Of a stretch of 64,000 nt of DNA, positions 5,863 through 59,092 are shown one piece after another. The stretch is from Haladaptatus sp. ZSTT2 (lineage in GTDB: Archaea; Halobacteriota; Halobacteria; Halobacteriales; Halococcaceae), in the NCBI RefSeq assembly GCF_037081775.1, contig NZ_JBAMHQ010000001.1, positions 1,364,001-1,428,000 of the forward strand, given 5' to 3'. The stretch's first letter is position 1. Each line of letters begins with the position of its first letter. The translations under genes and the position numbers were made by a program. The notes below the pieces were generated by a model. That model did not search any database, was not told where the DNA came from, and saw only the letters and a program-made list of their open reading frames with translations.

Positions 5863-6426
5863 TCAGCGACGGGGTTTGAACGTGGCCCGAAGGTCTTGGT
5901 CGTCGAGGGTGGTGGCCGTGTCCGAAAGCTCGTTTCGAAGCTGTAACAGCTCCGCTTCGAGTCCTGCGTACTCCTCGCTCGCTTCGAGTTCCTCGGGAGG
6001 TTTGGTCGCCTCCAGCGTCGCTTTTTTCGAGGCGAGTGCGAGGAACTCCTGCATCTGCTGGTCGTACGTAGCGCGCCGTGAGAGTGCTTGTACGGTGTCG
6101 AGGAGTGTCTCAGGCGACGACACGGGCTTTCTGAGATAGGCATCGAAGCCGAGGTCGAGGATGTCGAAGTCGGGTTCGACCCCGGTAATCATCACGACGC
6201 GACAGTCGAGGTCGCGGTCGGTGATGGTTTCGAGTACGGCTTCACCGTCCATATTCGGCATTCGGCGGTCGAGAAGCACGATGTCGACGCTCTCGTCGAG
6301 TTGTTCGAGTGCTTCTTTGCCGCTGTACGTGGGTCGCACCGTGTACGTTTCCGATAACCACTGGGCAAACGCATCAACGATGGAACGTTCGTCGTCAACA
6401 ATAAGTACAGTCTCTTGGGTGGACAT
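5863..6426 (-). CDS. Response regulator: receiver domain plus HalX domain
   Basis: 187 aa. The receiver domain (1-115) has the acidic pair D11-D12, the phospho-acceptor D53 in VLLDRRMPNMDG, T81 and K100 in LRKP. The C-terminal part (about 120-185) is a charged helical segment of the HalX type, known almost only from haloarchaea and found without an obvious DNA-binding motif. No histidine kinase is adjacent; the upstream gene on the same strand (6518-7528) is a winged-helix protein 91 nt away. HalX output function is unknown. A partner kinase must be encoded elsewhere; the kinase at 40231 is a distant possibility with no direct evidence. Confidence 0.92.
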   Translation of the reverse strand: MSTQETVLIVDDERSIVDAFAQWLSETYTVRPTYSGKEALEQLDESVDIVLLDRRMPNMDGEAVLETITDRDLDCRVVMITGVEPDFDILDLGFDAYLRKPVSSPETLLDTVQALSRRATYDQQMQEFLALASKKATLEATKPPEELEASEEYAGLEAELLQLRNELSDTATTLDDQDLRATFKPRR

Positions 6427-46392: not shown

Positions 46393-46749
46393 TTACAACT
46401 CTTCGCGGCTGAGTTTCACGCGGCGCTCCTCGAACTCCTCGTCGGAGAGCTCACCGCGTGCGTACGCCGCGCGCAACTCCTCCATTGCGGGATTTCGAGA
46501 CGCCTGCGATTCAGTTACGCGGCGGAAGACGAGGTAGCCCCCACCGAGCAGAACGAGGAGAAAGACCAGTGGGACGAACATTCCAACGAGTGGCCACCAG
46601 CCGCTGGTCGTCCCGTATCCGCCCATCATTCCGCCGTAGCCCATCATCCCGCCGAATGCCAGCCCCATCATGAGCAAGGGCAGGACAATGATTGCCCCGA
46701 GGATGAGGAGGACGATAGTCGTGGTGTCGAGTCGATTAGATGACGACAT
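46393..46749 (-). CDS. SHOCT-domain membrane protein with Met/Gly-rich loop
   Basis: 118 aa. Two TM helices (about 12-31 and 52-75) separated by a GGMMGYGGMMGGYGTTSGWW loop rich in Met, Gly and Tyr. The C-terminal SHOCT motif is MEELRAAYARGELSDEEFEERR. Predicted N-in/C-in, loop outside, which puts the Met cluster outside the cell. 6 nt after the DUF302 gene. Paralogue of 47257-47607. Role unknown; metal-linked by context. Confidence 0.85.
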   Translation of the reverse strand: MSSSNRLDTTTIVLLILGAIIVLPLLMMGLAFGGMMGYGGMMGGYGTTSGWWPLVGMFVPLVFLLVLLGGGYLVFRRVTESQASRNPAMEELRAAYARGELSDEEFEERRVKLSREEL

Positions 46750-46755
46750 CGCTAT

Positions 46756-47172
46756 TTACACCGCCGACGCGGATTCGAGTTCGTCAGCAATACTGTCTAG
46801 GACGCGCTTGAACCGGTCGTGAACCTCGGTCGCAATCGAGTCGAGCGCCTCGTTGTCAGCAATGCCGACAAGCTGTTGCGGATCGACCGCGCTAACCACA
46901 ACCTCGCCATCGTCGGTTTCGTAGACGATAACGTTGCAGGGGAGAAGTGCACCGAGTTCGATATCTTCGGTTAGCCCCTCAAGCGCGAGCCCCGGATTGC
47001 ACGCCCCGAGGATGCGGTACTGTCGAAATTCTTCGCCGAGTTTTGCTTCGAACGTTGCCTGCACGTCGATATCGCAGAGGACGCCGAATCCTTCGTCTTT
47101 GAGCGCGTCAATCGTCGTCTCGACTACCTGGTCGAACGCACCGGCCACGGATGCCTGTATTGTGTATTCCAC
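46756..47172 (-). CDS. DUF302 protein
   Basis: 138 aa. The whole length is one DUF302 domain: DQVVETTIDALKDEGFGVLCDIDVQATF, YRILGACNPGLALEGL, LLPCNVIVYETDDGEVVVSAVDP. There are three Cys: one in GVLCDIDV, one in GACNP and one in LLPCNV. DUF302 proteins often sit in metal or sulfur operons; function unknown. Between two SHOCT genes on the same strand. Confidence 0.92.
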   Translation of the reverse strand: MEYTIQASVAGAFDQVVETTIDALKDEGFGVLCDIDVQATFEAKLGEEFRQYRILGACNPGLALEGLTEDIELGALLPCNVIVYETDDGEVVVSAVDPQQLVGIADNEALDSIATEVHDRFKRVLDSIADELESASAV

Positions 47173-47256
47173 ACAATACTCAACACGGTTGCGGGACTTA
47201 ACTGTGGGGTTTCGACGAGGTTAGCCCGAATGGAATTCGAGACGACACCTGCGGAA

Positions 47257-47607
47257 CTATCCGGCACGTTCCAGCTGTTCACGCCGCCGTTCGAATTCAT
47301 CGTCTGAGAGGTCACCGCGGGCGTAGCGTTCTCGAAGAATCGACAGCGGATCTTCGCTGCGTCCAGCTTCTCGACGCTTCCCGAGCATGACGACGAGGGA
47401 GAGTGGAATTGCGAGCAACAGCCCAATCCAGAGGAGTCCCCAGAGACCCATCGCCCCGCCAAAAACTCCCCAACCACCACCCATCATTCCGCCCCCGGGG
47501 CTCCCGCCCATGGCAGCCGCCGTGCCAGTCGTCGCGACCAGCAGTGGGACGGCGAGCATCCCCAGTCGACGAGCCGTGCGTCCGATGTGAGCAGTGAGTT
47601 GCGTCAT
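47257..47607 (-). CDS. SHOCT-domain membrane protein with signal-like N-terminus
   Basis: 116 aa. A hydrophobic N-terminus (LGMLAVPLLVATTGTAAAMGG) is followed by a Gly/Met stretch (SPGGGMMGGGWGVFGGAMG), a TM helix (LLWIGLLLAIPLSLVVMLG) and the C-terminal SHOCT motif ILRERYARGDLSDDEFERRRE. Similar plan to 46393-46749. Upstream of DUF302 by 84 nt. Confidence 0.85.
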   Translation of the reverse strand: MTQLTAHIGRTARRLGMLAVPLLVATTGTAAAMGGSPGGGMMGGGWGVFGGAMGLWGLLWIGLLLAIPLSLVVMLGKRREAGRSEDPLSILRERYARGDLSDDEFERRREQLERAG

Positions 47608-47664
47608 TAGGTTGTGTGTGTGAGTTGCAGTGTTGGATTGAAACGAGCGAATCGAATTGAACGG

Positions 47665-47961
47665 TTAGCAGTGACCCTGTCCGTACATGCGGCCGTCGTG
47701 GCCGTTTTCAGTCATGCCCTGTGCCATCTCGTCAACGGACACACCCATGTGCGATTCCATCCACTGGACGGCACCAGGGCCCATGTGGTCGGTCATCTGC
47801 GCTTCCATCCAGGCCACCCAGCCGTCAGCGGTTGCGTCGGAGTGGGGTGCGTCGTCTGCAGTCGTGTCGTTGCCGTGTGCGCTGACCACGGGAGCGGCGA
47901 ACGCGAGTGCGACGAGTGCGAGCGCCACGAGCAGCCAGCGGCCGAGTTTGAAGTTGGTCAT
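47665..47961 (-). CDS. Secreted Met/His-rich small protein
   Basis: 98 aa from the ATG at 47961 (MTNFKLGRWLLVALALVALA). Signal peptide to about residue 28 (PVVSAHG). The mature part is rich in Met, His and Asp (MEAQMTDHMGPGAVQWMESHMG, MTENGHDGRMYGQGHC) and ends in HC. Seven or more Met and five or more His in about 70 residues suggest binding of soft or borderline metals such as Cu; this is inference. First of a run of four same-strand genes to 46393. Confidence 0.75.
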   Translation of the reverse strand: MTNFKLGRWLLVALALVALAFAAPVVSAHGNDTTADDAPHSDATADGWVAWMEAQMTDHMGPGAVQWMESHMGVSVDEMAQGMTENGHDGRMYGQGHC

Positions 47962-48125
47962 TGTGTTTCTCCTCGAGTACTCGTAGGGCGACTCAGGGGT
48001 TATCACGATGGGTGTGAACCCACCGAGGAAATCGTCCGAGAGCGTGTATAGACCGTTCTAATCGTTTTTTAGGAATAGAATCGTTCATGCCCACTGAAAT
48101 CATCGGGGTTGGCCTGAATCAGGCG

Positions 48126-48287
48126 TTACCGAGCGATTCGGCGCTTGAGAGTCGCCAGTAATCCGGGCTGCGTCCTCGACCTCTGCACTGAGTCGCTGCG
48201 GTGGGATTTCTCGGTTCCCGACTCGTCGGCGTCGAGCCGCGCCGCTTCGTAGTCCGCAATCATGTGGGCGACGTGGCGATTACACAT
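48126..48287 (-). CDS. Small hypothetical protein, 53 aa
   Basis: ATG at 48287: MCNRHVAHMIADYEAARLDA, then a polar Ser/Arg-rich region and a basic end (LLATLKRRIAR). A CxxxH pair at the start could bind metal. No homologue recognised. Upstream is AT-balanced with no clear promoter. It could be spurious. Confidence 0.4.
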   Translation of the reverse strand: MCNRHVAHMIADYEAARLDADESGTEKSHRSDSVQRSRTQPGLLATLKRRIAR

Positions 48288-48623
48288 AGGAGTAGATACG
48301 ACGCCCACCTACAAAACTGGTCGACTTGCCTTGTTGGAACTCTCAGCAGGTGAGATACGTTAGCGATTGTGCTGCATACAGCGTGCATATCGGTCACACA
48401 ACTTCGTTGGACATGGTGGTACGTACAGGCGACGGACCACTTTCATTTCTCTGCCGGTCGTTCCTGCGGTTTCCGTTCGAGAGAGGGAGGGGCGAACGTT
48501 GCCTGCCCGGAACGTACCGAAGGTACCATGGAGCAAGTGACGTGCGAAGAGCGTTCAGAAATCGAGATTCGTAATCCGAATCTGAGAAGCACAAGTTATC
48601 GCGTATCCCCGTGATAAGAGGAT
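48288..48623. other. Gap upstream of the ferredoxin-CDGSH gene
   Basis: 336 nt, no supported gene. The right end holds two inverted repeats: AGATTCG-TAATC-CGAATCT (48565-48583) and TTATC...GATAA (48596-48617), both just before the ATG at 48624. Confidence 0.5.
48565..48583. promoter_or_regulatory. 7-bp dyad upstream of the CDGSH gene
   Basis: AGATTCG, spacer TAATC, CGAATCT: perfect arms 41-59 nt ahead of the start codon. A second dyad, TTATC at 48596-48600 with GATAA at 48613-48617, follows. Their position around the expected core promoter suggests operator sites. Confidence 0.4.
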
Positions 48624-49280
48624 ATGGAAGAGGACGTCTACGAATACGATGACCGAGACATCACTGTCAGTTACGACCTGAAGCGGTGTATCCACGCACG
48701 CGAGTGTGTCAAAGGTCTTTCAGAGGTGTTCGATCCCGACCGACGTCCGTGGATCATGCCGGAAAACGCTGCTGCCGACGAAATCGCCGAGGTCATTACC
48801 CGGTGTCCAACCGGTGCACTTCACTTCGATCGGAAGGACGGCGGTTGGAAGGAGAAGACGCCAGCGGAGAACACCGTCACCGTCTCGACCAACGGTCCGA
48901 TCTATTTCCATGGAGACGTCAAGGTGACCGACGAAGCCGGAACGGTGTTGCTCTCGGACACACGCGTCGCGTTCTGTCGATGTGGTGCGTCGGAGAACAA
49001 ACCACTCTGTGACAACACCCACCTGAATATCAACTTCGAGGCACCGGGTACGGTCAGCGGAACCTCGGACTCCGAGGCATCTCCTGCGGGTGAACTGTAC
49101 GTCACCTTGACGCAGAACGGCCCACTGCACGTAAAAGGAGGGTTCAAGATTGACGGTCCGGACGACGGCTCAACCTACACGGATGATGACGCGTGGCTGT
49201 GTCGCTGCGGCGGGTCGGCGAACAAACCGTTCTGTGACAACACCCACGAAAAAATCGGTTTCACGACCGAGGACATCTGA
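48624..49280 (+). CDS. Ferredoxin-like domain plus two CDGSH iron-sulfur domains
   Basis: 218 aa. Residues 15-68 are a Fer4_19-type ferredoxin domain with C22, C28 and C61 (CIHARECVKG, RCPTGAL). CDGSH domain 1: C118-x-C120, C129, H133 (CRCGASENKPLCDNTH). CDGSH domain 2: C193-x-C195, C204, H208 (CRCGGSANKPFCDNTH). Each CDGSH domain holds a 2Fe-2S cluster with 3 Cys and 1 His. Likely an electron-transfer or redox-sensing protein in the cytoplasm. The partner is unknown. Convergent with an MFS gene. Confidence 0.92.
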   Translation: MEEDVYEYDDRDITVSYDLKRCIHARECVKGLSEVFDPDRRPWIMPENAAADEIAEVITRCPTGALHFDRKDGGWKEKTPAENTVTVSTNGPIYFHGDVKVTDEAGTVLLSDTRVAFCRCGASENKPLCDNTHLNINFEAPGTVSGTSDSEASPAGELYVTLTQNGPLHVKGGFKIDGPDDGSTYTDDDAWLCRCGGSANKPFCDNTHEKIGFTTEDI

Positions 49281-49298
49281 CTGGAACACGACTGCATG

Positions 49299-50612
49299 TC
49301 ACCCTCTTCTTGACGCTTCGAGGGAGTCAAGACCCTCAGCGTCAGTGATACCACCTGTCCTCCGAGAGAGTAACCAACCACCCAGGCCACTGGCAAACCC
49401 GAGGACGCCCGCGGCGAGCAAGAGTGACTGGTACCCCCAGAAAGGTGCGAGGCTGGCGAATAGCACCGGTGCGAGCGTGCGTCCGAGGAAGGTAGTACTG
49501 TTGCGGAGGCTCAATGCCTCGGCTCGAAACTCGACCGGAACGAACTCGCTGACGTCGTCGTCGATCGCCGGAAGGACGAGACCCCACCCGGCGCCGAAGA
49601 CGAAGCTGGCGAGACCGACGCTCGTCGGCGAGTTGGCGAGCCACGCGGCGACGAGCCCCACGCTCGCGAAAGCAAATCCGAGGACGATGATTGCGTCGTC
49701 CGACAGGTGTTTGACGAGTCGACCGGACTGTGAGGCGGCCACAGTCGACGCGACGAGCGCGGCCGTGACGACGACGCCAATACCGACGGGCCCGACGGCA
49801 AACGCGCTGTCCAGGAGGAATGGAATCGCAGTGACCACTGCCCCGAAGAGCAACAGCTCAATCATGAAGGCAGACCCATACAGGAGGGTAGCCTCCCGGG
49901 CTGAGAGCGCCCTAATAACCTCACGGAAGGATCCGAAGCCGTGGGTCACGTGTTCGACCGACGGCTCCGTCAGCGCGAGAGCCGCAAAAAGGGCCACAGG
50001 AAGTCCGAGGAGGTACAGCAAAAAAGGGGCGTTCCAAGAACTGGTCGCGAGTGCCCCACCGACAAGCGGGAAGACGGCAGCCCCCGCGGAGAGGACCGCC
50101 GTGTTCGCCCCAAGCACCGCGCTCCGCTGAACTCCCGCGAAGGTGTCACCGATCAGCGTGACGGTCGTGATGAAAATACCGGCCGCGGCCGTCCCCTGGA
50201 TGACCCGAAGCACCAGCGCGATCGAGTAGCTTGGGGTGAACGCGATGGCCGCCCCAGCCAGACTGAAACCTACGAGTGACGGTATCAACACCCGCCGCCG
50301 ACCGATTCTGTCCTCAAGGAGGCCGATGAGGGGCGAGAAGAGGATGCCCGTCACGAAGTAAGACGAGATGACGAGGCTCGTCTCCGCGTCAGTGAGTGCG
50401 AATCGCTCTTGGATGACGGGAAGCCCGGGAGTGATGAGCGCGACACCGAGTGGCGCAAGGAGTGTACTTGCGAAGACTACACGCACGGTCGGAGATTGCC
50501 ACGGAACCGATGTACGATGCTTCTCGCTGATCCATTCTTTCAGGTGTCGACCCATCGATAGCGACGCGTCGACCATGGAACCACGTGGGTGATTCGACGC
50601 GTTAGATTTCAT
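49299..50612 (-). CDS. MFS transporter
   Basis: 437 aa. Twelve TM helices by eye; motif A is GLLEDRIGRRRVLIPS. An N-terminal hydrophilic extension of about 40 residues precedes TM1 (VFASTLLAPLGVALITPGLPVI), so a start at ATG codon 13 or 20 is possible. Exporter of the drug/H+ type; substrate unknown. Stops 18 nt from the CDGSH gene. Confidence 0.88.
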   Translation of the reverse strand: MKSNASNHPRGSMVDASLSMGRHLKEWISEKHRTSVPWQSPTVRVVFASTLLAPLGVALITPGLPVIQERFALTDAETSLVISSYFVTGILFSPLIGLLEDRIGRRRVLIPSLVGFSLAGAAIAFTPSYSIALVLRVIQGTAAAGIFITTVTLIGDTFAGVQRSAVLGANTAVLSAGAAVFPLVGGALATSSWNAPFLLYLLGLPVALFAALALTEPSVEHVTHGFGSFREVIRALSAREATLLYGSAFMIELLLFGAVVTAIPFLLDSAFAVGPVGIGVVVTAALVASTVAASQSGRLVKHLSDDAIIVLGFAFASVGLVAAWLANSPTSVGLASFVFGAGWGLVLPAIDDDVSEFVPVEFRAEALSLRNSTTFLGRTLAPVLFASLAPFWGYQSLLLAAGVLGFASGLGGWLLSRRTGGITDAEGLDSLEASRRG

Positions 50613-50924
50613 AGAGCGTATACGACGGGTCGGGAAATATCCCTATCTTCGACACGCTACGAAGCATGGTTCACCGGCTACGGCACTCAAAGAAATTGAC
50701 TGAGAAGACCAGGCGAGCTGCGCTATGCGCTACGGATGGGTGCACACGGTATCTATTTCTATTATCGGCTGTTTCAGCCGCTTCGAGCGATAGTGGACAC
50801 GCACCCTCGGAGGTGTGGAGGCACCATGTCAGGTTAAGCCAGAACGGTGTCGCTGAGTACAGCGGGGAGCCTCTTGACCCCCGTTGCATCTAGCTTGATG
50901 GTAGTTGGTATCGATTGACTGACC
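50613..50924. other. Gap between MFS and ferritin-fold genes
   Basis: 312 nt between divergent genes. No convincing small gene and no strong dyad. The promoter of the ferritin-fold gene is not obvious by eye. Confidence 0.4.
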
Positions 50925-52025
50925 ATGGTGATTGACACGAGACAGAGCCTGCAAGAACACCTCCAGTGGGCCATCCAAGTTGAACTGTCGACCATCCCGA
51001 CGTACCTCTACGCGATGTACTCCATCGACGACAGGGGCTCAGATCCGTATATCCTCATCAGGAGTGTCGTCGTCGAGGAAATGCTCCACGCGGCGCTCGC
51101 CGCCAACCTCCTGGTTGCAGTCGGGGGGACTCCTCGATTCTACGACGAGGATGTGATGCCGTCGTACCCGATGGACCTCCCACACCACGACCCACCGATA
51201 CGGATGAATCTCGAACGGTGCACCACAGACTTTATTGAGCGGGTTTGCTTGCCAATCGAGCACCCTCGCGAGGTCGGCAGCCTCCCAGAAGACGACAACT
51301 ACGACACCATCGGGCAGTTCTATCTCGCCGTCGAGCAGGCCATCGAGTACCTCGACGAGCGGGAGTCGCTGTTCGCGAACCCGCGGGTGGAGCGACAGAT
51401 GATGGACCCAGAGTACTACGCTCCGATCGAATTCGACGACGTGGAGAGCGGGGGGCTCCACCCTATCGACGACCTCGACAGCGCCTGTCGAGCGATCGAG
51501 ACGGTCATCCACCAAGGTGAAGGGGTGAGAGACGAACACTGGGCGGATCCCCACCACCACGAGATGACCCACTACTACAAGTTCAAGAAGATCGCCGACG
51601 GTACATTCTCGTTAGGAGACGTCCGTCCCGTACTTGAAAACCCCACAGCTGACGACTTCTCGCCAGCGTTGCATCCCGTCTTGGATCTGTTCAACGCAGC
51701 GTACAGCTACACGTACGTCCTCATGGACGAAATCTACGCCACGACCGATCGGGACCGGAAAGACAAACTGGTCAACGACCTGTATACGGTCATGTCGGGC
51801 GTCCTCTCGCAACTGGCTCGCTTTCTCACGACCTGTCCCGCATCCAATGGTGGCGAGGAGCGGGCAGGGCCGACGTTCGAATTCTACCGCTTCGAAGAGG
51901 GGTCGACACCGGCGACTCACATTCGAAGACTGACCACGTCAGTCGTGAGAAAGTACGGTGAACTTGCCACCCTCAACGGGATGGTAGAAAGCCTGCACAC
52001 GATACCTCGCCGGTCGGCCGAGTGA
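50925..52025 (+). CDS. Ferritin-fold (PF12902, VioB/iminophenyl-pyruvate dimer synthase-like) protein
   Basis: 366 aa. The opening LQEHLQWAIQVELSTIPTYLYAMYSI is the hallmark of the VioB C-terminal ferritin-like domain. A likely metal ligand is E20, with E52 and H55 in the ExxH motif VVVEEMLHAALAANLLVAVGG. The second helical half has YLAVEQAIEYLDE, AIETVIHQGEG and HYYKFKKIADG. In violacein and rebeccamycin pathways this fold joins two imine-pyruvates. Here there is no N-terminal VioB half and no partner oxidase nearby, so the reaction may differ. Confidence 0.85.
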   Translation: MVIDTRQSLQEHLQWAIQVELSTIPTYLYAMYSIDDRGSDPYILIRSVVVEEMLHAALAANLLVAVGGTPRFYDEDVMPSYPMDLPHHDPPIRMNLERCTTDFIERVCLPIEHPREVGSLPEDDNYDTIGQFYLAVEQAIEYLDERESLFANPRVERQMMDPEYYAPIEFDDVESGGLHPIDDLDSACRAIETVIHQGEGVRDEHWADPHHHEMTHYYKFKKIADGTFSLGDVRPVLENPTADDFSPALHPVLDLFNAAYSYTYVLMDEIYATTDRDRKDKLVNDLYTVMSGVLSQLARFLTTCPASNGGEERAGPTFEFYRFEEGSTPATHIRRLTTSVVRKYGELATLNGMVESLHTIPRRSAE

Positions 52026-52244
52026 CCGCCACGTTATGTCTCCCACTCTCGTACGGTTACCTCTACTTTCAGCCTGCGGCGGTGCAATCCTGTCACCTGA
52101 ACCTCTCGTCAGAATCTATCACTGACGACAGTCGTCTCCCGCCTCCACGCTACACCACCGATCGAGGGTGCGAGTGAGTCGTGATGACGCGTTGTCCCGC
52201 ACCGTCATCCAGCTTCGCCGATTGGGTATGCAGCAGCTAGTGAC

Positions 52245-52649
52245 TCAGTACGTCCGATGGGAGACCGAGCCAACCTCAATGCGGACGAGGACGTTCTCCG
52301 ACCACGCGTCGTCTTCGACCCCGTACTTCTGGTTGATTCGCGTATTGGCCGCTCGGATTTCGTCTTCATCTTCGACGACCGTCGCCGTCCCTCGCACGGT
52401 CACCATCCACTCGGGGATGCCCTCGTGGTCCTGCTCGAAGGAGAGAGACACGTAGGGGTTCTTCCGGATGTTGGCGAGTTTGACCCCCGTTGTGAGTATC
52501 TCGATGACGCCGCTTTCGTACCGATACCAGAGCGGTGCCGAGTGGGGCCGACCGTCGGCACACGTCGCCAGGTGTGCGACGACCAGTTCGTCCGTGAGGA
52601 GACCCTCAACCTCCGGGGGGACGTCTCCATGAGAACGAATACGGTTCAT
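52245..52649 (-). CDS. PPOX-class flavin/F420-binding split-barrel protein
   Basis: 134 aa. Pyridoxamine-5'-phosphate-oxidase-like split barrel: LTDELVVAHLATCADGRPHSAPLWYRY, VKLANIRKNPYVSLSFEQ and VTVRGTATVVEDEDE are the standard blocks of small F420- or FMN-dependent reductases in halophilic archaea and actinobacteria. Substrate unknown. The 219 nt on its 3' side (52026-52244) and the 250 nt on its 5' side hold no supported gene. Confidence 0.88.
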   Translation of the reverse strand: MNRIRSHGDVPPEVEGLLTDELVVAHLATCADGRPHSAPLWYRYESGVIEILTTGVKLANIRKNPYVSLSFEQDHEGIPEWMVTVRGTATVVEDEDEIRAANTRINQKYGVEDDAWSENVLVRIEVGSVSHRTY

Positions 52650-52899
52650 GGGGTTCGTACACGTCGTCTCAGTGCAAAAACGTCTCGTCGGGGCTCGTCA
52701 CCGTTCACTCCCGCACAGTCAGCGGGTGCCGAGATGAGAGTGGCACCCGAGAAGGCGAGAAACGTCCGCCAAGTGAGGAGGCTCTTCATGCTGGACGAAG
52801 CTGCTCGAGTGGAAAGATATGTGGTCATACAACTAACGCCAGGTAATGATACCCGTTAGTACAGTCAACGTGGCAGTTGTTTTGCAGAGATGGATGCAG

Positions 52900-53502
52900 T
52901 CATTCACCGACTGTGTGCTGAGATTGCTGCAGGTCATCACTCGGATAAATCCGATACGTCCGCCCCTGCCGTTCACGGTACAATAGGCCGCGTTTCTCGA
53001 GGGCACTGACCGTTTGACTCACCTTGCTCTTGGAGAAGTCTGAACGATCCCGTAGTTCAATCTGTGTGATACCGGGCGAGGAGAGCACCGGTTCGAGAAT
53101 CCGGCGTTCGTCATCCGGCAGGAGGTCGAGGACACGAGCGCGAGGTTGTTCTTCTGGATTTTTCGCGCCAGTCGAGTGAACCTCACTCTGCGGTGCGCCA
53201 TCGCCCTCCTCGCTGGCCGTGTTCGGGGACTCGTTCAGCGGTTGGGCACTTGCCTCAGCTCCGGAGCGGTCGTCACGGACGGTGAGATAGAGGCCACCGA
53301 TGACAGCGGTGACGAGCAATGTCCCAAGGACGTACCAGAGCGGGTTCGTTCCGTGAACCAATCCCATCGACGTGCCCATCATCGACCCCATCTCTTCGAA
53401 CGCTCGTTGCTGCTGATACGCCTGCCAGCTAAGCGCACCACCGACGAGGAGAACGGCAGCGATGAGAAGTCCAACGACTGTGTCGGCACGGCGTCGGTTC
53501 AT
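52900..53502 (-). CDS. Two-TM winged-helix regulator with Met-rich outer loop
   Basis: 200 aa from the ATG at 53502 (MNRRRADTVVGLLIAAVLLV). TM1 about 8-25, TM2 about 54-73, with a basic RRR before TM1, so the loop 26-53 is outside. That loop holds EEMGSMMGTSMGLVHG: four Met and one His in about 15 residues. An acidic linker follows, then a winged helix at about 130-195 (ITQIELRDRSDFSKSKVSQTVSALEKRGLLYRERQGRTYRIY). It looks like a one-component membrane transcription factor. Divergent from the CopZ-like/metal ATPase genes, so a copper-responsive regulator is a reasonable inference. Confidence 0.8.
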   Translation of the reverse strand: MNRRRADTVVGLLIAAVLLVGGALSWQAYQQQRAFEEMGSMMGTSMGLVHGTNPLWYVLGTLLVTAVIGGLYLTVRDDRSGAEASAQPLNESPNTASEEGDGAPQSEVHSTGAKNPEEQPRARVLDLLPDDERRILEPVLSSPGITQIELRDRSDFSKSKVSQTVSALEKRGLLYRERQGRTYRIYPSDDLQQSQHTVGE

Positions 53503-53619
53503 CCATCCCACCTCGATCTGCCGGGGTACTCGTTCATATCTACACGTTGGCGAGACAGCGGTGTAGCAGTTGTGATTGGGAGGGGCAATACTCAGGGAGA
53601 TGGCGAACGCAGTCTACAC

Positions 53620-53632
53620 TCCCTTCAAGGGA
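53620..53632. promoter_or_regulatory. 13-nt palindrome in the regulator-CopZ intergenic region
   Basis: TCCCTT-C-AAGGGA, perfect, about 118 nt upstream of the regulator start and 175 nt upstream of the CopZ start. Rather far from either TATA box, so a role as operator is uncertain. Confidence 0.3.
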
Positions 53633-53776
53633 AAGTCGGGGAGTGCCATCGCCCCATTCAACACGGGCTAAAGCGGCCCACCGTTCACACGCAGGCTGGC
53701 AAACGCATCACGGCTGGAATGGCTTCGATTTCAAAGCTAGTGTACCCTACAACCACGTATTCAAAGGGAAAACGCC

Positions 53777-53784
53777 GATAAAAG
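53777..53784 (+). promoter_or_regulatory. CopZ promoter TATA box
   Basis: GATAAAAG centred about 27 nt before the ATG at 53807; predicts a leaderless mRNA for the chaperone-ATPase unit. Confidence 0.5.
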
Positions 53785-53806
53785 TGGGGCGCGTACGTAT
53801 TCCTGT

Positions 53807-54004
53807 ATGACGACGACCATCACCGTAGAGGGGATGTCCTGTGGCCACTGTGAACAGACCGTAACAGACGCGCTTCGAAGCGTCTCTGGCGTGACCGATG
53901 CCACTGCCGACCGTGAGACTGGGCAGGCAAGCGTCGATGGCGATGCCGACGTCTCAGCCCTCGTACAGGCCGTCGAGGACGCTGGCTACACTGCCCACGC
54001 CTGA
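53807..54004 (+). CDS. CopZ-like metal chaperone (HMA domain)
   Basis: 65 aa. One heavy-metal-associated domain with the metal site GMSCGHC (residues 9-15). It would carry Cu(I) to the ATPase encoded 84 nt downstream. The sequence is acidic, as expected for a haloarchaeon. No extra domains. Confidence 0.95.
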   Translation: MTTTITVEGMSCGHCEQTVTDALRSVSGVTDATADRETGQASVDGDADVSALVQAVEDAGYTAHA

Positions 54005-54088
54005 GACCGCACAGAACGTTCGCGGACAATCACCCCGGTCGTTCTCTTTCGAATTACCTCAACCGCTCAGTGTCAGGGTTCGGACAGA

Positions 54089-56332
54089 ATGATGTGGGGC
54101 GGCACCAATACACAAGCTATGAGCAATCATCCAGATGACGAGCACTCCGGACACGCATCACACGAGCATGCGACTCACGACCCGCCAGGCGAGACCAGCA
54201 CCAAACCGGAACGAACGGACGACAATACGCACCACGCGCACGAAGCGCAGTCAGGGCACAGCCACACCGAGATTGAACACGGGAACACCGACGAAGTCGA
54301 GCACCCCCACGACGCACGCCATGGTGGGCACATTGACGAGGGGAGCCACATGGCGCACACAGATCACACCGGCCACGAACGGATGTTCCGCCGCCGATTC
54401 TGGGTGTCGCTCGTTCTCTCGATTCCAGTCATCTTCTTCAGCGAATTCATTCAGGATGTCTTTGGCTACACGGCACCGATATTCCCGGGCAGTATCTGGA
54501 TCACGCCCGTCCTCTCTGTGATTATCTTCGCCTACGGTGGCGTGCCGTTCCTCTCGATGGCCCGGACGGAATTCGAGAATCGTGAGCCGGGAATGATGCT
54601 GCTGATCTCGCTGGCCATCACCGTCGCGTTCGGCTACTCGCTCGCCAGCCTCGTCCTCCCGGGGACGACGCCCTTTTTCTGGGAACTCGTCACCCTCATC
54701 GACATCATGCTGCTTGGCCACTGGATGGAAATGCGCTCGGTTCGCCAAGCCTCCGGTGCGCTTGACGAACTGGCCAAACTCATGCCCGATACCGCAGAAC
54801 GCCTCACCGAGAGTGGTGAGACAGAGGACGTTCCCGTTTCCGAACTGTCCGCGGGCGATGTCGTCCTCGTCCGTCCCGGTGCCTCCGTTCCTGCGGACGG
54901 CGAGGTCGTGGAGGGCGAGTCATCGGTAGACGAATCGATGATCACCGGCGAATCTCGGCCGGTTGACAAGGAACTCGGATCAGAGGTCGTCGCTGGCACA
55001 GTCAACCAGGACGGGAGTCTTCGAGTTCGCGTGACGAAGACCGGTGACGAGACCGCCCTCGCGGGCATTATGCGGCTGGTCGACGAAGCGCAGCGATCAA
55101 AATCCCGAACCCAGTTGCTTGCCGACCGCGCAGCAGGCTGGCTGTTCTACATCGCACTCGCTGTCGCGGCCATTACGGCTGTCGCCTGGGTACTCGCCAC
55201 TGGGTTCAACCTCACCGTTCTCGAACGCGTCGTGACCGTCCTCGTCATCGCCTGTCCCCACGCCCTTGGACTCGCTGTCCCGCTCGTCGTTGCGATTAAT
55301 ACCTCCACCGCCGCCCAGAATGGAATGCTCATCCGCGACCGCATCGCCATGGAAGAAGCCCGGAATCTGGATACGGTCATGTTCGACAAAACGGGCACGC
55401 TCACGAAAGGCGAGCAGGGCGTCGTCGCCGTTGAGACGGCAGGCGACTGGGATGAACAACGAGCGTTGGCGGTGGCCGCTGGCGTCGAAGGTGACTCCGA
55501 ACACATGATTGCCCGCGCCATCCGAAACGCCGCCGCCGAACGTGAGGTCCAACGAGCCAGCGTCTCGAACTTCGAGAACCTCCGTGGCCTCGGTGTCAGA
55601 GCGACCGTCGACGGTGAAACGGTCCATCTCGGCGGCCCAAATCTAATCGAAAAACTCGGCATCAAGCGGTCCGCCGAAATCAGTTCATTTGCCAACGACG
55701 CTGGCGCGAACGCCCACACGGTCATCTATCTCATCCGCGAGGAGTCCGAGATCGTAGCAGCGTTCGCCCTCGCAGACGTAATTCGCGAAGAGAGTCGGCA
55801 GGCCATCGAGGCGCTGCACGGAATGGGCATCGAGGTGGCGATGCTGACCGGTGACTCCGAAGCCGTCGCGAAAGCGGTTGCCGAGGAACTCGGCATCGAC
55901 CAGTACTTCGCGGAAGTGCTGCCCGAGGAGAAAGACACGAAAGTAGCCCAACTCCAAGCCGAGGGGAAGCTGGTTGCGATGGTCGGCGACGGCGTCAACG
56001 ACGCGCCCGCGCTTACGCGAGCCGACGTTGGCATCGCCATCGGGTCGGGAACCGACGTCGCCATCGAATCGGGCGATATCATCCTCGTCGACAACAATCC
56101 GATGGACGTAGTGCGCCTCATTCGACTGTCGAAGGCGAGCTACCGGAAGATGCAAGAGAATCTCGTGTGGGCAACCGGCTACAACGTGTTCGCGCTCCCG
56201 CTCGCTGCCGGGATTCTTGCCCCCATTGGGATTTTACTGTCGCCAGCCATCGGCGCGGTGTTCATGTCGCTCTCGACCATCATCGTCGCCATCAACGCCC
56301 GGCGACTCAAGGGGGTCGACCTCACGGCATGA
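54089..56332 (+). CDS. Heavy-metal P-type ATPase, CPH (P1B-3, CopB-like) with His-rich N-terminus
   Basis: 747 aa; ATG codons 2 and 11 are alternative starts. Residues 14-98 are a His-rich tail with about 20 His in place of HMA domains. Then eight TM helices with the metal site C389-P390-H391 in [15 protein letters not shown], which defines P1B-3 (CopB) pumps for Cu. TGES actuator motif, phosphorylation site D433 in DKTGTLTKG, and [11 protein letters not shown] are intact. In the nucleotide domain the usual HP of SEHPIA reads H472-M473 (SEHMIARAI). Exports metal at ATP cost. ATGA overlap with the next gene. Confidence 0.93.
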
Positions 56333-58117: not shown

Positions 58118-58412
58118 ATCCCACCCCAAACGGGGCTATCTATTAGTTCAAAGAGGGGATTTTCAGCGGATGCAAAAACCCAGTCAATAATCAACCCGGA
58201 CCGCAGCCGCGAGGTTGCTAAGACCGTTGCTCAGTCATGCTAGATGGGCAGTTCACGGGTCGATTTGACGAGGTGCAATCACTGGACAGTACAACCCACA
58301 GGTCGCATCTCGAGGTACGCGACTTTTGCCATCCGCTCCACACTGAAAGCCGAGGTCCTAGCCGTGACGCTCCCATAATAGTAATGGCGTGCATGGCACA
58401 ACAGTGAACCCA

Positions 58413-58772
58413 ATGAGTCGAACAGGCACGTCCGACCAACAATTACTCGCCTTACTCGGGGATCGTGCTGTTCAGCGAATTCTCACCGCGACAGACAAAC
58501 ACCCGATGTCAGCGAGTATGCTCGAACAATCCTGCGATGCGTCGCTCACGACGATTTACCGGCGCATCGAAGAGCTTCGAGAGTTCGAACTGGTTCGCGA
58601 ACGGGTGAACGTCCACCCAAACGGGAATCACTACAAAACGTACGAAGCAAACCTCGAGCATCTTGGTGTCCACCTCACCGATGGAAAACTGGATGTAGAA
58701 GTCAAACACCGAGACGATGGGCCCGACAGATTTCGTGGCATTTGGGACGCCATGCAAGGAGGGCGAGACTGA
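58413..58772 (+). CDS. ArsR-like winged-helix regulator
   Basis: 119 aa from the ATG at 58413. The winged helix spans most of the protein: LLGDRAVQRILTATDKHPMSASMLEQSCDASLTTIYRRIEELREFELV, then the wing VNVHPNGNHYKTYEANLEHL. There is no obvious metal-binding Cys set (one Cys, in EQSCDAS). Its stop overlaps the next gene's ATG by 1 nt (TGATG). The winged-helix plus small 3-TM protein pairing recurs in haloarchaea and hints at signal passage from membrane to DNA. Confidence 0.85.
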   Translation: MSRTGTSDQQLLALLGDRAVQRILTATDKHPMSASMLEQSCDASLTTIYRRIEELREFELVRERVNVHPNGNHYKTYEANLEHLGVHLTDGKLDVEVKHRDDGPDRFRGIWDAMQGGRD

Positions 58773-59092
58773 TGCACATTGGCCTCGTCGTCGCCAAACT
58801 CCTTGTTGTGCTCATCGGCGTCCTCATTGCGCTCCAGGGATATCGTGCGTATCTCCGAGAAACTAACGCACGGATGCTCTTTGTTGCCGTTGGCTTCCTC
58901 CTCTTGAGCGTCGGGTCGGTGCTCGAAGGCATCTTCTACGATGTGCTCCACTTCTCGGTGTTTCTCGCTGGGATGATTCAAACGCTGTTCGTCGCACTCG
59001 GAATGGCACTCATTCTGTATTCGCTCTACATGACGACAGACGCAACCGATACTACAGCGCAAAAACCGGATACGCCCCACGAATCAACCTGA
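58772..59092 (+). CDS. Small three-TM protein coupled to the winged-helix gene (DUF7521-like)
   Basis: 106 aa (MHIGLVVAKLLVVLIGVLIA...). Three TM helices: about 4-22, 36-56 and 63-85. LQGYRAYLRETNARMLFVAVGFLLLSVG and LEGIFYDVL are typical of a haloarchaeal family I recall as DUF7521. Translationally coupled to the upstream regulator. Likely acts with it. Confidence 0.8.
   Translation: MHIGLVVAKLLVVLIGVLIALQGYRAYLRETNARMLFVAVGFLLLSVGSVLEGIFYDVLHFSVFLAGMIQTLFVALGMALILYSLYMTTDATDTTAQKPDTPHEST

Follow-up and report, generated by a model that had tools for sequence, protein, structure and literature searches.

Within a 64,000-nucleotide stretch of the haloarchaeon Haladaptatus sp. ZSTT2, here termed the window, a gene for a membrane protein with a DNA-binding domain lies back to back with genes for a copper chaperone and a copper-type ATPase. 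The locus raises the question of what this protein, termed REG, senses, and which gene it controls. An earlier note on this DNA proposed that REG is a copper sensor that controls its divergent neighbours. The observation itself is confirmed and its interpretation is supported in part; the target gene proposed there is probably not the right one.

REG and its Met/His loop

The REG open reading frame is present at 52900-53511 on the minus strand and encodes a haloarchaeal protein of about 200 amino acids. A GTG at 53511 is an alternative start, while the ATG at 53502 is probably the true one (gene at 52900-53502), because homologues align at M-N-R-R-R. The protein begins with two hydrophobic helices around a Met/His loop; an acidic, disordered linker then leads to a winged helix at the C terminus. 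In the AlphaFold model, the two helices occupy residues 3-39 and 54-83, the linker 83-117, and the winged helix 120-198. Confidence differs along this model, with a pLDDT of about 88-91 in the winged helix, a low value of about 52 in the loop, and an overall pTM of only 0.36.

The predicted winged helix-turn-helix DNA-binding domain is encoded at 52933-53145 (minus strand). In Pfam, residues 132-187 match DUF7343 (2.4e-9) and MarR_2 (3.7e-8), both above the curated cut-offs (37.3 bits against 27.6, and 33.8 against 27). MarR-family chains head the list of Foldseek matches to this domain, which is structurally similar to MarR repressors, and homologues of REG carry the label “MarR family transcriptional regulator” in public plasmid records. 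No match to solved structures was obtained by sequence profile, and nothing on DUF7343 was found in the open-licence literature searched. Comparison with known metalloregulator families (ArsR/SmtB, CopY, and Lrp-TRASH/CopR) gave only scores below cut-off, such as 24.9 bits for HTH_metalloreg (cut-off 55) and 14.9 for CopY_TcrY (cut-off 122), and Pfam detected no TRASH domain in REG. With a DNA-binding domain and predicted transmembrane helices in one protein, REG is, as modelled, a transmembrane one-component transcription regulator (TTR).

The Met/His loop, EEMGSMMGTSMGLVHGTNP, is encoded at 53341-53397 (minus strand) between the two membrane helices and is conserved across almost the entire set of 58 distinct homologues. 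Residues M41, M44, M45, S48, M49, and H53 (numbered from the GTG) are each found in 91-98% of these. In 71 homologues, close and remote, the loop contains a mean of 5.5 Met and His per 25 residues, compared to 1.6% Met and His elsewhere. Distant homologues retain both residues in a reshuffled order, for example EMGGHMGDGAAAMHGTHP and GEMMGHAAVHGTNP, and their loops remain enriched. The excess in the REG of the window taken alone is modest (binomial p=0.003), and thus it is the conservation of the loop that carries the argument.

Application of the positive-inside rule by eye suggests that the loop lies outside the cell with both termini inside, because the N terminus contains RRR and an Arg follows helix 2. 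Copper or silver is suggested as the metal because the genomic islands that contain REG also carry CopZ, the P1B-3 ATPase, a YHS permease, and a multicopper oxidase. Conservation and the copper-gene setting support a membrane regulator whose Met/His loop is predicted to face outwards. The description in the earlier note of a two-helix regulator with a Met/His loop and a winged helix is borne out by the reading frame, Pfam, AlphaFold, and loop conservation.

The divergent copper genes and their promoter

The divergent arrangement was also described correctly. On the plus strand, the unit at 53807-56332 begins with the HMA-domain copper chaperone CopZ (53807-54004; HMA match 3.5e-19) and continues with an ATPase (54089-56332). 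The latter is of the P1B-3 copper type, since it features a CPH motif at residue 382, the motif MSxSTxxVAxNA, and a His-rich N terminus with 20 His within the first 95 residues.

Direct control of this unit by REG through the interval 53512-53806, as the earlier note had proposed, is unlikely. Proximity does favour it: a P1B-3 gene lies less than 8 kb from REG in 19 of 133 REG copies, compared to about 0.6% expected by chance, and it is directly divergent from REG in the window and in three Haloferax-type genomes (G154, G188, and G243). However, REG is present in 144 of the 391 genomes of the class, over a third, and its co-occurrence with P1B-3 among them is weak (odds ratio 3.1). In 80 named REG loci, the commonest neighbour is not copZ. 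It is an ArsP-type permease gene with YHS/TRASH domains, which lies directly upstream in the same orientation (about 49 loci), followed by a secreted Met/His protein (43 loci) and then by SHOCT and DUF302 genes. In a genome of the same genus (G070), the order is P1B, copZ, SRPBCC, and a small membrane gene on one strand, and permease, REG, a small protein termed MCNRH, and the secreted protein HISMET on the other. Judged by gene order, direct contact between REG and copZ in the window is secondary, because in G070 the YHS permease gene sits between the two and this permease is missing from the window.

The promoter of copZ points in the same direction. Expectation-maximisation on 15 non-redundant permease promoters identified a shared element, CTTTTGAATCCAAAGT, located about 83 bp ahead of the start (log-likelihood 98 vs 43-51 for shuffled input, n=15). 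The same element, a palindromic copper box, is found about 70 bp ahead of copZ in the window and in other islands. In the window it reads GCTTCGATTTCAAAGC and lies at 53722-53737 on the plus strand, 69 bp upstream of copZ; a second copper-box-like sequence, CCTTTGAATACGTGGT at 53752-53767 on the minus strand, is the best match in the 64-kb window and overlaps the likely BRE. A scan of the window with the core-promoter motif from the permease promoters gave no decisive matches.

The box also precedes the ATPase gene in Haloferax, where the ATPase faces REG. In genomes without REG, it is found ahead of copA (68-71 bp), copZ, the YHS permease, and the Lrp/TRASH copper activator. The copA gene of the same genome as the window has the box 68 bp upstream and an Lrp/TRASH gene close by, at 451.4 kb of contig C1. 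It has been established that the Lrp/TRASH protein VNG1179C of Halobacterium regulates a copper ATPase and two metallochaperones (PMC3551603), and that CopR of Pyrococcus is an activator whose semi-palindromic binding site lies immediately upstream of the BRE (PMC7830388). The copZ promoter in the window has the features of this regulon, a semi-palindromic box at the same fixed spacing as at copA. Because the same box occurs in genomes without REG, it probably serves the Lrp/TRASH activator (CopR) rather than REG. The idea of a shared site through which REG would control copZ was dropped, as the strong copZ box recurs at the copA/TRASH loci of genomes that lack REG. Moreover, the palindrome found at the promoter of HISMET (see the next section) is absent from 53512-53806. 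On the simplest reading, the Lrp/TRASH activator and not REG probably governs copZ. The argument from adjacency is thereby corrected, with the neighbouring pump probably under a regulator other than REG.

The copper box, with a consensus near CTTTCGATTCCAAAG, was also seen 68-71 bp upstream of copA at loci L139, L141, L148, and L155 and at others, with this fixed spacing. It might serve for prediction of copper regulons in haloarchaea.

HISMET and the palindrome at its promoter

HISMET is encoded at 47665-47961 on the minus strand. It carries a signal peptide, the two Met/His motifs WMEAQMTDHMG and WMESHMG, and a C-terminal Cys that is kept in 32 of 32 distinct copies. Downstream of it lie a small SHOCT-domain membrane protein with the motif MMGGGWG (47257-47607, minus strand) and a DUF302 protein (46756-47172, minus strand).

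HISMET occurs in 106 of the 391 genomes, and 103 of these 106 also have REG (Fisher odds ratio 204, p~5e-56), compared to odds ratios of 3.1 for the P1B-3 ATPase and 3.3 for the YHS permease. Genomes are treated as independent in these counts and p-values, although they have common ancestry and the islands are mobile across genera; what is informative is how the partners compare with one another. In 18 sampled genomes that have REG and are HISMET-negative by E-value, 15 encode a secreted Met/His-rich protein of diverged sequence immediately downstream of REG, and most of these proteins end in or near Cys. Judged by this near-exclusive co-occurrence, the real partner of REG is HISMET and not the copZ-ATPase unit.

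In the window, REG is separated from MCNRH (48126-48290, minus strand), HISMET, and the SHOCT and DUF302 genes by CDGSH, MFS, ferritin-like, and PPOX genes at 48624-52649. At loci L037, L123, and L124, MCNRH is directly downstream of REG.

Several minor features of these islands were observed. The CDGSH, MFS, ferritin-like, and PPOX (F420-type) block, taken as 48400-52649, looks like an insertion or rearrangement. Loci L064-L080 and L082-L092, with REG at about position 6000, contain near-identical cassettes of permease, REG, HISMET, SHOCT, DUF302, and amidohydrolase genes in many haloarchaeal genera. One identical REG protein is common to 17 loci, which points to recent transfer, and the REG unit is often plasmid-borne. 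At 58389-59092 of the window, an HTH gene (HVO_A0261-like) and a DUF7521 membrane gene overlap, and the same pair is found in copper islands L036, L049, L050, and L057.

Met clusters can serve as redox targets, and metal at the REG loop is so far something we infer. REG might instead sense another envelope signal, such as membrane stress or oxidation of the loop Met by reactive chlorine or oxygen species, with HISMET as a response protein. This is improbable, since His is conserved along with Met in the loop, the partners are Met/His-rich and usually Cys-terminal, and the neighbours are copper genes. Copper or silver remains the preferred signal.

The promoters of HISMET genes have a TATA-like box followed by a palindrome, TATA-ACGTTCTCGAACGT, in common. 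In the window, this element reads TCTATACACGCTCTCGGACGATTTCC (48027-48052, minus strand) and is the candidate operator of REG. The palindrome at HISMET is the sole exact match in the 3.2-Mb genome. With a profile built from close loci, the top-scoring site of the entire 5.6-5.8-kb locus fell just downstream of REG in 16 of 18 distant loci, and the palindrome is on the strand of REG in 66 of the 80 named loci. It was not seen at other promoters of the islands. It was also not found upstream of REG itself, and thus autoregulation through it is not seen. The palindrome lies just after the TATA-like box, a position that suits a repressor released by metal.

From this distribution we infer that REG binds the palindrome, which could also be bound by another regulator. 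HISMET might then be a ligand or co-sensor of REG that delivers or withholds the loop metal, while a different factor occupies the palindrome. Near-exclusive pairing would suit a physical partner no less than a target gene, and the lack of a palindrome in front of REG fits this arrangement too. It is quite unlikely, however, as the palindrome stays with the REG-HISMET pair and no conserved regulator gene other than REG was seen alongside. Binding of the palindrome by REG is the reading followed below.

Other conserved elements were noted in these intergenic regions. A footprint upstream of REG, CCCAATCACAACTGCTACACCGCT (53557-53580, minus strand), may represent the REG core promoter or a site of autoregulation; it was set aside as an operator, since the islands contain no further copy of it and distant loci have not conserved it. 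A second conserved stretch, GTTCACACCCA...GATAAC, follows the palindrome and precedes the start of HISMET (47990-48026 in the window, and in distant loci); it may be a transcription start or a leader hairpin. Rfam contains no known RNA element that matches 46700-54200.

Proposed mechanism and relation to known systems

The reading we lean towards, by a small measure, is that REG is a one-component envelope sensor of copper or silver that controls the secreted metal sponge HISMET through the palindrome. The extracytoplasmic Met/His loop would bind Cu(I) or Ag(I), and possibly Cu(II). The resulting change would pass via the two membrane helices to the cytoplasmic MarR-type winged helix, which would act on the HISMET promoter through the palindrome. 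On exposure to metal, the winged helix would release (or activate) this promoter, and the sponge would then be secreted. In its own genome, the target of REG would be HISMET, perhaps together with the SHOCT and DUF302 genes that follow (48052 to 46756, minus strand). The copZ and P1B-3 ATPase genes, though in the same island, would probably depend for activation on the cytoplasmic Lrp/TRASH activator, whose gene lies elsewhere in the genome.

The earlier note held that this sensor type was not known. That claim calls for caution: one-component regulators with transmembrane helices occur commonly in archaea (PMC10269533, PMC6396743), although the open-licence literature searched yielded no metal-sensing example. 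The TTRs surveyed (PMC10269533) also combine a DNA-binding domain with a membrane helix in one protein; they are mostly single-pass, and neither metal nor MarR is mentioned in the survey. Unlike most of them, REG has a short loop between two helices as its sole external part. Like REG, ArnR and ArnR1 of the archaeon Sulfolobus acidocaldarius are membrane-bound one-component regulators that combine an HTH domain with two transmembrane helices (PMC6396743). Their order is reversed, with an N-terminal HTH, a HAMP-like and a sensing domain, and C-terminal helices. They respond to nutrient limitation, and the available text describes no Met/His loop, the comparison being one of descriptions only. 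The DNA-binding domain fold is shared with MarR/DUF7343 proteins, of which the classical MarR members are soluble dimers without membrane helices.

In copper biology, a bacterial system resembles the REG-HISMET model in working principle only. A periplasmic Met triad and a His stretch of E. coli CusS take part in copper sensing (PMC10100754), and SilE of the sil system is a Met/His periplasmic metal sponge (PMC5008109). CusS/CusR and SilE thus share with the model envelope sensing of copper or silver, Met/His sensor residues, and a Met/His-rich sponge. CusS/CusR, however, is a Gram-negative two-component phosphorelay, while REG has no kinase and carries its own DNA-binding domain. CopR (VNG1179C/HVO_1752; Lrp/AsnC-TRASH) is likewise an archaeal regulator in a copper setting, with an upstream semi-palindromic box that serves copper ATPase and chaperone genes (PMC3551603, PMC7830388). 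Unlike REG, it is cytoplasmic, senses through its TRASH domain, and is encoded elsewhere in the genome.

The archaeal copper regulators in the literature searched, of the CopR type, sense in the cytoplasm. REG, if the model is true, would detect metal outside the cell without a CusS-like kinase. Chances appear evenly balanced that REG and HISMET form a two-gene unit widespread among haloarchaea, with a single membrane protein that senses external copper or silver through its short Met/His loop and directly controls the gene of a secreted Met/His/Cys sponge, as an archaeal one-protein counterpart of CusRS plus SilE. REG, HISMET, and the candidate operator are together short enough for testing in a genetically tractable haloarchaeon.

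The metal may not be the same throughout the family. Distant chromosomal forms of REG have His-rich partners, which could suit Zn, Ni, or Cu(II). At loci L172-L185, distant REG forms are paired with secreted His-repeat proteins (with GEHHAEH repeats, for example), and a different metal preference may follow.
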